This document shows, piece by piece, positions 8,515 through 63,816 of a stretch of DNA of 64,000 bases. Source of the stretch: Lachnospiraceae bacterium (GTDB lineage Bacteria > Bacillota > Clostridia > Lachnospirales > Lachnospiraceae). A model generated the notes under the pieces. The model was not told the origin of the DNA. It worked only from the letters and a program-made list of their open reading frames with translations, and made no database searches. The stretch covers positions 1 to 64,000 of the forward strand of contig JAIKXH010000009.1 of assembly GCA_024684215.1 (NCBI GenBank). Reading direction: 5' to 3'. The translations under genes and the position numbers were made by a program. Each line of letters opens with the position of its first letter. Within the stretch, counting starts at the first letter, position 1.

Positions 8515-8668
8515 CCTAGTAACGGCGCCTAGCATCGATAGGATTCTTCACTCACACGCCTCGCGGCTCATAACGCGTTACGCAGCGGTACTAAGCTCAT
8601 TCTTCGAATTCGCTAAGTGCCGGCGACGCTACATGGTTCGTTCAGAACCTATCGACGCTCTCGCCTGG
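8515..8668 (-). ncRNA. Putative structured RNA element, copy A (homologous to 62379-62540)
   Basis: Intergenic; aligned by eye to copy B with shared blocks (e.g. CGAACCATGTAGCG) and shared paired regions with compensatory changes and a GNRA hairpin. Confidence 0.7.
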
Positions 8669-8678
8669 AAAGTATAAC

Positions 8679-9830
8679 TTAGAAGACCCCAAAAATCGCC
8701 ATGAAGGTTCCGGCTGCAACTGCGGTACCGATAACACCTGCTACATTAGGTCCCATAGCATGCATGAGAAGGAAGTTGGTAGGATCTGCCTCAGCACCGA
8801 CCTTCTGAGATACTCTGGCTGCCATAGGTACAGCAGATACGCCGGCTGAACCGATAAGAGGGTTAACCTTACCCTTTGTGGCAACGCACATAATCTTACC
8901 GAATAAAACTCCGGCAGCGGTACCAAACATGAATGCAACAAGTCCAAGTCCTACAATCTTAAGAGTACTTACGTTAAGGAAAGACTCAGCGCTGGTGGTT
9001 GCACCTACGCTGGTTCCGAGAAGAATAACAACGATATACATCATAGCGTTGGAAGCAGTCTCGGTAAGCTGTCTTACCACGCCCGACTCCTTGAAGAGGT
9101 TACCAAGCATAAGCATACCTACAAGAGGAGCTGTGGTAGGAAGGATAAGACATACCACAATAGTAATCACGATAGGGAAAAGAATCTTTTCAAGCTTTGA
9201 AACAGGACGAAGCTGACCCATTTTAATAGCACGCTCTTTCTTAGTGGTTAAGAGCTTCATAATAGGGGGCTGGATAATCGGAACGAGGGACATATATGAA
9301 TATGCCGCAACGGCGATAGGTCCTAAAAGTGCAGTCTGTCCAAGCTTTCCGGCAAGGAAAATGGATGTAGGTCCGTCGGCGCCACCGATAATAGATACGG
9401 CTGCAGCTGCCTTGTCGTTGAATCCAAGAGCGATTGCTCCGAAGTATGCAGCGAAAATACCAAACTGCGCTGCTGCACCCAAAAGGAAACTCTTGGGGTT
9501 TGCAATAAGAGGACCGAAGTCGGTCTGAGCTCCGACACCAAGGAAAATAAGTGACGGTAATATTGCAAGTTCATCAAGCTTATAGAAATAATAAAGGAGT
9601 CCGCCCTGACCGTTAGCCGCGCTCTCCGCACTGATAATAATGTCCGGATAAATATTAACCAGAAGCATACCGAATGCGATAGGCACTAAAAGGAGCGGCT
9701 CAAACTCGTGGCGTATTGCCAAATAAAGGAAAAAGCAGGCAACCAGAATCATCAAATAGTTTCCCCATGTTAAATTGAAGAATGCTGTCTGATGAAGCAG
9801 ATTGCTCAGCGTATTAGCTACGTAAGCCAT
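8679..9830 (-). CDS. oadB: Na+-translocating decarboxylase beta subunit
   Basis: Polytopic protein with [36 protein letters not shown] and [15 protein letters not shown] motifs typical of OadB/GcdB/MmdB. Confidence 0.95.
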
Positions 9831-36420: not shown

Positions 36421-36439
36421 GTGGTCTCACCTCCTAGTG

Positions 36440-36493
36440 ACGTTAGCCGCGTATTTCGCAGTAACGTGAAAATGCAAAGCTTTGTGCATTTTC
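36440..36493 (-). promoter_or_regulatory. Two tandem hairpins between fliL and fliM
   Basis: Minus strand GAAAATGCACAAAGCTTTGCATTTTC then ACGTTACTGCGAAATACGCGGCTAACGT, followed by CACTAGGAGG (SD). Confidence 0.65.
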
Positions 36494-36494
36494 A

Positions 36495-37022
36495 TCATCC
36501 AAACTGAGTATCGCTGATAGCAATAGCGTAAATAAAGTCAGATCCGAACAAATCCTGAATCGCCTTTAAAATCTCAGCTTTAAGGCCTTCCTCATTGGTT
36601 CTGCACTCTTCCTCGGTCTTTGAAGAAATAATCGTTCTGATAGCATCCTTGATAAGAGTCTCATTGGTGGCAACCAAAGGCTGCATCGTCTTATAATCCG
36701 GGTGAGTTTTGTTTATCTGAAGCGATATATGGCAAACCATATAAGGAGTCTTTACTTTTCCGTCAGCGGTAGTAACCGACTGAAGAGCTATAGTCATCTG
36801 ATCCGCAATAGCATAAACTTCGGTATCCGCAAGCGAAATCGGCTCAACAGCACTTTCTTCGGTGCCATCGGTTAATTCAAGATTCATAACCGTCATGATT
36901 GTGGTTACAAGAGCCGAAGTCTTGCTGTTTGTAGTTGTAACACTGATCATCATTATGATTGAAAGGACTATATTTACAAGTACAAGTGCCAAGACCACAA
37001 TCGTAAGCAGGTTCTTTTTCAT
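36495..37022 (-). CDS. fliL: Flagellar basal body-associated protein FliL
   Basis: N-terminal TM, FliL-like LKAEILKAIQDLFGSDFIYAIAIS; position between motB and fliM. Confidence 0.9.
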   Translation of the reverse strand: MKKNLLTIVVLALVLVNIVLSIIMMISVTTTNSKTSALVTTIMTVMNLELTDGTEESAVEPISLADTEVYAIADQMTIALQSVTTADGKVKTPYMVCHISLQINKTHPDYKTMQPLVATNETLIKDAIRTIISSKTEEECRTNEEGLKAEILKAIQDLFGSDFIYAIAISDTQFG

Positions 37023-61609: not shown

Positions 61610-62356
61610 TTATGCGTTAACGATCTTTCCGAAGTCAGCCTTAAGAGATGCGCCTCCGATAAGTCCGCCGTCAATGTTGGGCTTTGAAAGAAGCTCAGCA
61701 GCGTTAGCGGCATTCATTGATCCGCCGTACTGGATGCGAACAGCTTCTGCGGTAGCCTGGTCATAAAGCTTGCAGATAAGCTCACGGATAAATGCACAAA
61801 CTTCCTCAGCCTGATCAGCGGTAGCAGTCTCTCCGGTTCCGATAGCCCAGATAGGCTCGTAAGCGATAACAAGATTCTTAACCTGATCTGCACTTACTCC
61901 CAAAAGGTCCCAGGTAATCTGTCTCTCGATCCACTCTTTGTAAGTTCCTGCCTTACGAAGTGCAAGAGACTCACCACAGCAAAGGATGGGAGTAAGTCCG
62001 GCTGCAAATGCCTTCTTTACCTTTGCATTGATAAGGATATCATTCTCTCCGAAGATATCTCTTCTCTCAGAATGTCCCATGATAACATATTTAACGCCTG
62101 CGTCAACAAGCATGGGTGCTGAGATTTCTCCGGTGAATGCACCCTTGTCCTCGATATAGAAGTTCTCGGCACCGACATTAACATTGGTTCCTTTTACAGC
62201 TTCTACAACGGGTACGATATCGATAGCAGGTACGCAGTAAACTACATCAACTGCATCATTCTTTACTAAATCTTTAAGCTCTGCACAGAGTGCAACTGCC
62301 TCGCTGGGAGTCTTGTTCATCTTCCAGTTGCCGGCAATAATTCTTCTTCTTGCCAT
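61610..62356 (-). CDS. tpiA: Triosephosphate isomerase
   Basis: [65 protein letters not shown]; start at MARRR, preceded by AAGGAG. Confidence 0.98.
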
Positions 62357-62378
62357 GATATTCTCCTTAATTAACTTT

Positions 62379-62540
62379 CCTAGTGACGGTTTCAAGCATC
62401 GATAGTTTCACCGCTCACGCGCCTCTCGGCTCATATCGCTCCAGTAGCGGAACTAAACTCATGCAGCGTTTACACTTGCATTCGTTAAGTACCGACGTCG
62501 CTACATGGTTCGCTTTGGAAACCATCGATGCTCTCACCTG
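62379..62540 (-). ncRNA. Putative structured RNA element, copy B (homologous to 8515-8668)
   Basis: Intergenic between pgk and tpiA; same stem arrangement as copy A with compensatory changes and a GAGA tetraloop hairpin. Confidence 0.7.
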
Positions 62541-62592
62541 TAAATAATAAGCGAATATAATAATCAATCACTTATCATGTCAAAAATAATGA

Positions 62593-63816
62593 TTACTTGT
62601 CATCTGCAGCTACTACACCGGGAAGTTCCTTGCCCTCAAGGAATTCAAGGGAAGCGCCGCCGCCGGTGGAGATGTGGCTCATCTTGTCGCCAAGACCCAT
62701 CTGGTTAACAGCTGCTGCGGAATCACCGCCACCGATGATGGTGGTAGCTGAAGAATCTGCAAGAGCCTTAGCTACAGCGAGGGTACCTGCTGCAAGAGTA
62801 GGGTTCTCGAATACGCCCATAGGTCCGTTCCAAACAACGGTCTTTGCATTAGCTACAGCCTCAGCAAAAAGAGCCTGTGACTTAGGTCCGATGTCGCATC
62901 CCTCACGGTCAGCGGGCATCTTGTCTGAATCTACAATAACTGTATCAACGGGAGCATCGATGGGATTAGGGAACTCAGCGATGGTAACAGCATCAACGGG
63001 AAGAAGAAGCTTCTTTCCAAGCTTTTCAGCCTTAGCCATCATTTCCTTACAATAATCGATCTTCTCGTTGTCAACAAGTGACTTACCGATCTCATAGCCC
63101 TGAGCCTTAAGGAAAGTGTAAGCCATACCACCGCCGATGATGAGGGTATCGCACTTCTCAAGCAGGTTATTGATAACGTTAAGTTTATCAGCAACCTTAG
63201 CGCCGCCGAGGATTGCAACGAAAGGACGAACGGGATTTTCAACGGCATTGCCGAGGAAATCAATCTCCTTCTGCATAAGGTAACCAACAACGTTCTCTCC
63301 ACCCTTCTCGGTGATGAACTTGGTAACGCCTGCAACTGAAGCATGTGCTCTGTGTGAAGAACCGAATGCATCGCAAACATAAAGATCTGCAAGATCAGCG
63401 AGTTCCTTGGAGAACTGCTCTCCGTTCTTGGTCTCTTCTGCGCCACGGAAACGGGTATTCTGAAGAAGAACTACATCGCCTTCCTTCATAGCCTCTACAG
63501 CCTTGGTAGCAGCCTCGCCGGTAACATTGTAATCGGAAACGAATACAACTTCCTTACCAAGCTTCTCAGAAAGTCTTTTTGCAACGGGTGCAAGTGACTC
63601 CTTCTCATTGGGGCCTTCCTTAACCTTACCGAGGTGTGAGCAAAGGATAACCTTTCCTCCGTCATTAATAAGCTTTTTGATAGTAGGAAGAGCAGCTACG
63701 ATTCTGGTCTCGTCAGTAATCTCACCGTTCTTAAGAGGAACGTTAAAATCGCAACGAACAAGTACTCTCTTTCCCTTAGCATTGATATCATCAACTGATT
63801 TTTTGTTAAGTCCCAT
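62593..63816 (-). CDS. pgk: Phosphoglycerate kinase
   Basis: [88 protein letters not shown]. Confidence 0.98.

Follow-up and report, generated by a model that had tools for sequence, protein, structure and literature searches.

We report a conserved, previously undescribed RNA module that is absent from Rfam and present in about half of the sampled Lachnospiraceae genera. It forms the tip of a long intergenic hairpin, two copies of which lie in the window analysed here, a stretch of 64,000 nucleotides of contig JAIKXH010000009.1 from a Lachnospiraceae bacterium. The hairpin has a defined structure, is dispersed and mobile, is excluded from genes, lies in near-random orientation and turns over at its sites; its mobility is seen in 10-bp target duplications and in near-identical copies in related lineages. 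We consider it likely that the element is a non-autonomous, MITE- or REP-like mobile hairpin repeat of intergenic regions with a conserved RNA module at its tip, and not a private tpiA switch. This is a strongly supported structured, mobile RNA motif in a dominant family of the gut and rumen, and it turns into a testable question why an RNA junction is kept intact on one strand while a freely drifting stem stays paired.

The element is one long hairpin (stem P1) that opens at its tip into a three-way junction of P1, P2 and P3. The copy in the pgk–tpiA gap, copy B, has its sense strand on the minus strand, with pgk upstream. Its parts and surroundings are as follows.

62379–62541, minus strand: copy B, whole element, from the ACAG foot to the CGTCACTAGG foot in the pgk–tpiA gap; boundaries from 36 congeneric copies
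62538–62541, minus strand: 5' foot box ACAG (genus consensus WCAG), from congeneric copies
62517–62537, minus strand: copy-specific 5' arm of P1, pairing with its own 3' arm at −29.6 kcal/mol
62508–62513, minus strand: inner P1, 5' side, GCGAAC; helix 1 in alignment A1, double changes in 6 of 6 pairs
62482–62494, minus strand: P2, 5' strand, CGGTACTTAACGA, including the GA of the tandem G.A; helix 2, GA invariant
62446–62460, minus strand: P2, 3' strand, GAGTTTAGTTCCGCT, including the second GA and the CU bulge; helix 2 in alignment A1
62421–62430, minus strand: P3 mini-hairpin, GCC-GAGA-GGC, with a GNRA loop; helix 3, compensatory changes
62413–62418, minus strand: inner P1, 3' side, GTGAGC; helix 1 in alignment A1
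62389–62410, minus strand: copy-specific 3' arm of P1, partner of 62517–62537
62379–62388, minus strand: 3' foot box CGTCACTAGG (genus consensus CGTNACTARG), from congeneric copies
62554–62583, minus strand: promoter-like TTGACA-18-TATATT just upstream of copy B, 11 of 12 matches, in the host flank
61610–62356, minus strand: tpiA (TIM), Pfam PF00121, E 5e-93
62593–63816, minus strand: pgk (PGK), Pfam PF00162, E 4e-155

The consensus of P1, P2 and P3 is based on an alignment of 56 diverse copies (A1), in which 16 of 22 consensus pairs have changed on both sides. On none of five covariation measures does any of 500 shuffles reach the observed value, and slid controls collapse. Helix 2 (P2) is paired in 98.2% of cells, with double changes in 8 of its 14 pairs; it carries a U.U mismatch, an invariant tandem G.A and a CU bulge, and the two pairs preceding the tandem G.A covary, occurring as AU or GC and as CG or UA in nearly equal numbers. 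Sampling relied in part on an exact pattern, which fixed some P2 columns and left the covarying partners, P1 and P3 free. In P3, a GNRA loop sits atop two or three pairs. Because G.A reads T.C on the opposite strand, these core features are limited to one strand.

The outer arms of P1 vary in sequence among copies, and each 5' arm still complements its own 3' arm. Across 93 copies, the duplex of own arms averages −30.8 kcal/mol compared with −12.2 kcal/mol for swapped arms, and the own partner ranks in the top three for 90 of them. The copies of one genome, G116, have almost identical inner parts and outer arms that are divergent yet paired. Such pairing with the own partner would result from compensatory drift, or equally from template switching that corrects one arm against the other, a process known for quasipalindromes. 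In the genus, the 36 copies with both ends recognised begin with WCAG and end with CGTNACTARG at the stem base, and these feet are not inverted copies of one another.

The covariance model matches copy B at 62392–62530 (96.6 bits, E 2.5e-24), and the transcript strand folds at −66.1 kcal/mol against −52.0 kcal/mol for dinucleotide shuffles (z −3.2). On the minus strand, the CGTCACTAGG box (62388–62379) is followed after 10 nt by AAGGAG (62368–62363) and then by the tpiA ATG at 62356. The first-pass annotation had placed the element after pgk, 22 nt before the tpiA start codon and about 10 nt before the Shine-Dalgarno sequence AAGGAG; all of this is borne out, with the 3' edge of the element at 62379, 10 nt counted, and PGK and TIM identified by Pfam on its flanks. 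Its remark that no poly-U follows the copy likewise agrees with a scan of 62300–62700 for an intrinsic terminator (hairpin plus U-run), in which no terminator-like site was found. Sequestration of the tpiA Shine-Dalgarno sequence by copy B is negligible, with a predicted accessibility of 0.68 compared with 0.73 upon removal of the element. The predicted start of the promoter-like match at 62554–62583 coincides with the 5' foot; promoters are not enriched over shuffles 5' of other copies, so this match is not a conserved part of the element. Copy B would be co-transcribed within the pgk–tpiA mRNA, where it may serve at most as a generic intercistronic hairpin, such as an RNase III or mRNA-stability site, and not as a tpiA-specific sensor. 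An effect on mRNA processing or stability, generic in kind, is possible, and tpiA would respond, if at all, as to any stable hairpin between two cistrons.

The second copy in the window, copy A, lies before oadA in the same orientation as copy B, as the first reading had it and as coordinates and Pfam confirm.

8515–8667, minus strand: copy A, between OAD-beta and oadA; covariance model score 81.8 bits
7045–8472, minus strand: oadA (HMGL-like / PYC_OADA), Pfam
8679–9830: OAD-beta, flanking copy A on the side opposite oadA

Copies A and B are 73% identical (E 1.7e-18). A count of two copies is right for the window, but not for the genome, in which covariance model R1, used for all copy counts, finds 8. 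Elsewhere in the window, at 36432–36500 on the minus strand, a small hairpin (GAAAATGCA...TGCATTTTC) is followed by ACGTTACTG and then CGTCACTAGGAGG ahead of a gene; this is possibly a core-less relative.

To what extent the element is tied to its neighbours was read from 93 model-located copies in nine genomes, with gene calls taken as simple ORFs. None of the 93 lies inside a gene. Copies in tandem gaps are 44 sense versus 29 antisense, a near-random orientation (p = 0.10), and a further 12 are flanked by convergent genes and 4 by divergent ones. In the own genome, copies adjoin unrelated genes, among them rpsJ and ilvC, a leuC-like gene of the aconitase family, a purL-like gene (GATase_5) and one for a MoxR-type ATPase. 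A better-kept fold in sense copies was looked for and not found in the genus, where fold quality is independent of orientation (p = 0.57). Together, the exclusion from genes, the near-random and fold-independent orientation and the varied neighbours argue that the conserved fold is not for regulating the adjacent gene. Given the weak overall sense excess, some benefit in cis is conceivable. Head-to-head pairs of copies about 100–280 nt apart, often between convergent genes and BIME-like in appearance, were also observed (loci L011, L012, L014, L020, L030, L031, L323 and L355).

Within the genus, tpiA was located in 21 of 31 genomes, and the content of the pgk–tpiA gap differs widely. The element is found there in G000, G005 and G006, in differing subfamilies; a second repeat type in G009, G010, G015 and one G021 locus; a third in G016, G018, G023, G026 and G027; a composite in G025; and a mere short spacer in G001 and G002. 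The second type is also structured (GAGCGATTTAAAGTGAG...AACGAAACGGTTGAGCAATATC...ATTTCGRGAGCG...; loci L185, L187, L192 and L205 in G010, G009, G015 and G021, respectively). The third (GTTTGCGCTGCCCGCCTGAGC...GCAGCTCGTGC...AGCGAAGGCACAGGCAAGC; loci L194, L196, L197, L199 and L200 in G026, G018, G016, G027 and G023, respectively) is inverted in G027. At oadA, the gap contains the element in G000, G009, G006 and G003, a composite in G025 and nothing in G004, G005, G008, G010 and G013. G009 and G006 have the same 3' flank at oadA and carry different subfamilies, so the content of the site is exchangeable. At both loci, close relatives show an empty gap, unrelated repeats or other subfamilies of the element.

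Mobility was read from the ends of the copies. Clostridia bacterium B91_16_CH_BP (G675) contains about 125 copies, mostly of 189 nt, and its terminal sequence CAATGTCATTWAGTTAAG occurs 124 times in forward and 132 times in reverse orientation; the terminal inverted repeat matches listed form pairs about 171 apart or are single. Direct repeats of 10 bp (9 or 10 matches) flank 27 of 39 copies examined, compared with 3% of cross-paired flanks, and shifted-offset controls show no target duplication. These ends are terminal repeats of about 18 nt that fit the end consensus of the IS4 subgroup, -AATR--------WTW, for which direct repeats of 10–13 bp are given (PMC2266710 Table 1); in both their ends and their 10-bp duplication length, the G675 copies agree with IS4-family MITEs. 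Flanks in this genome (loci L072, L078, L088 and L133) show the 189-nt element often nested in a second palindromic repeat (GTTACTATTCACGGC / GTAACAGTTCAGCC). A second genome, G160, also has terminal inverted repeats, of another sequence (TAGGTAATTGCGAAACTA), and in 7 of 20 copies there, 8 or more of the 10 target bases are duplicated. Since the ends differ among G675, G160 and the present genus, it is the core that is common, and not the ends. G160 further contains short versions of 69–92 nt (loci L421, L424, L426, L431, L437 and L438) that share the ends of core-bearing elements and lack the core, one of them (L426) with 8 of 10 target bases duplicated. They suggest that elements can move without the core, and a role of the core in transposition becomes less credible.

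Three observations in the present genus count against a mobile repeat: no target duplication is visible among the 36 copies with both ends, no transposase is tied to the copies, and all tpiA and oadA copies seen are in sense orientation. The proteins recurring near copies include no shared transposase and no nuclease, just orthologous housekeeping neighbours. On the other side, the element is short, non-coding and present in many dispersed copies, as MITEs are, and G005 has five near-identical copies with a shared flank. Solo 3' ends (GGCGCCGTCACTAGG) that directly follow genes, together with a core-less mini unit, ACAG-hairpin-CGTGACTAGG (L471:851, L473:983 and L472:945), are probable deletion remnants. 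We envision that transposases acting in trans move the element, that they vary from lineage to lineage and are IS4-like in at least one of these, and that the element is most likely tolerated within intercistronic gaps. The core must be selected for something besides control of a neighbour. As only one strand maintains the fold, irrespective of how host genes are oriented, it most likely serves the element itself, as RNA or as single-stranded DNA; that it is a protein-binding fold would be our guess.

The own genome included, 30 of the 31 genus genomes contain 1–30 copies each by model R1. Family-wide, with no more than 13 candidates scored per genome, matches at E ≤ 0.001 occur in 132 of 250 genomes and 131 of 249 genera, about 109 genomes reaching E < 1e-6. 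Among 399 sampled across the phylum, only one genome outside the family (G638) has strong full-length matches, and two further non-family genomes have weak partial matches alone. Such weak partial matches, spaced about 74–86 nt apart, occur in another family (L300 and L306 in G473, L299 in G498) and are possibly a tandem or CRISPR-like array. Named records are chiefly Lachnospiraceae MAGs and isolates, with a few labelled Selenomonadaceae or Veillonellaceae. An IMG/VR pattern scan and phage and plasmid searches returned no match to the element. Rfam gave nothing at copies A or B at the gathering threshold in a scan of the window, and chance-level matches alone at a relaxed threshold for copy B and 8 loci with copies. 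We found no description of the motif in the literature, where an earlier listing in the supplementary candidate list of PMC8040213 remains conceivable.

That differing structured repeats occupy the pgk–tpiA gap across congeners, as if any hairpin would suffice, and that copies lie strictly in gaps, few of them divergent (12 convergent versus 4), would also fit a generic intercistronic mRNA element, namely a domesticated hairpin retained for processing or stability of the flanking mRNAs, an idea put forward for ERIC and NEMIS. We regard this as possible but on balance unlikely, as orientation is near random, antisense copies fold equally well and the gaps are empty in several congeners.

Rather more doubtful, for this genus, is a Y1 (HUH) transposase that moves the hairpin in the form of single-stranded DNA, comparable to the mobilisation of REPs by RAYTs. 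The fold is strand-specific, the asymmetric conserved feet WCAG and CGTNACTARG lie exactly at the stem base, and Y1 genes occur in 6 of 7 genus genomes with at least 14 copies versus 3 of 24 others, a correlation that may reflect shared ancestry or incomplete genomes. However, neither copies nor foot boxes are found near the 14 Y1 loci examined, and the duplications in other lineages are typical of DDE transposases. We give similarly little credence to a reading in which one and the same functional RNA module, catalytic or protein-binding, is conserved throughout the Lachnospiraceae within mobile hairpins whose ends are unrelated from lineage to lineage. What is inherited over the long term would then be the RNA instead of the transposon ends, and bacteria would have an equivalent of SINE-like or IStron-like partnerships.

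A stand-alone gene for a trans-acting small RNA, multicopy by chance, would explain a core conserved irrespective of neighbours and the 11/12 promoter match immediately before copy B, but it is improbable given that promoters are not enriched upstream of copies, copy B has no terminator and congeners range from 0 to 30 copies. Least probable by far is a cis-regulatory leader, a riboswitch or protein-binding RNA that would tune tpiA and oadA in response to a metabolite or protein of central carbon metabolism: its strong structured core, the sense position of both window copies and of every genus tpiA or oadA copy seen, directly before the Shine-Dalgarno sequence in the window, and a copy before tpiA in a separate record (L125) speak for it, yet the turnover of sites and the diversity of adjacent genes already refute most of it, 29 of 73 copies in tandem gaps are antisense, predicted Shine-Dalgarno accessibility is almost unchanged, and the terminator scan at copy B was negative.

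Of the roles first proposed, a metabolite- or protein-sensing regulator of a central-carbon gene thus finds no support among diverse neighbours, antisense copies and changing sites, and the 93 copies do not take the consistent sense position before one gene class expected of a riboswitch or leader; a mobile, ERIC-like repeat favouring intercistronic gaps is supported by dispersal, gap location and mobility. Most of the outcomes that the first-pass annotation had named as refuting it were observed, namely those on orientation, gene class and sites in close relatives. The element cautions against taking such copies for gene-specific riboswitches.

Among known systems, the enterobacterial ERIC/IRU and the Neisseria NEMIS/Correia repeats are similar in being 100–200 nt long, non-coding, hairpin-forming and dispersed between genes, and effects on mRNA have been reported for them when co-transcribed (PMC2229807). 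Unlike them, the element has a three-way-junction tip common to many genera and a copy-specific stem, and no sequence relation was found. IS4-family MITEs share the terminal repeats and 10-bp target duplications of G675, whereas other lineages and this genus have other ends, no parent IS was found among the terminal-repeat matches listed in G675, and MITEs are not typified by a conserved RNA core. REP/RAYT systems likewise involve strand-specific, intergenic hairpins with a short conserved foot, often in inverted pairs; the element is several times longer, its core is branched, and no Y1 gene flanked by copies was found among the 14 Y1 loci. The foot tetranucleotide known from REPs is GTAG, instead of WCAG and CGTNACTARG. 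HEARO/omega RNAs and other large bacterial RNAs in Rfam are structured, multicopy and associated with mobile DNA, but the element has no Rfam match of useful score and no nuclease gene nearby. IStrons, as outlined in PMC4227781, combine a group I intron with an IS, and the element similarly pairs structured RNA with transposable DNA, though it has no intron or ORF and we claim no catalysis for it. Taken together, the element does not qualify as a member of an Rfam family, a REP or a riboswitch; it resembles ERIC, NEMIS or REP in distribution and an IS4-family MITE in one lineage, and it is set apart by a shared branched RNA core carried on copy-specific stems.
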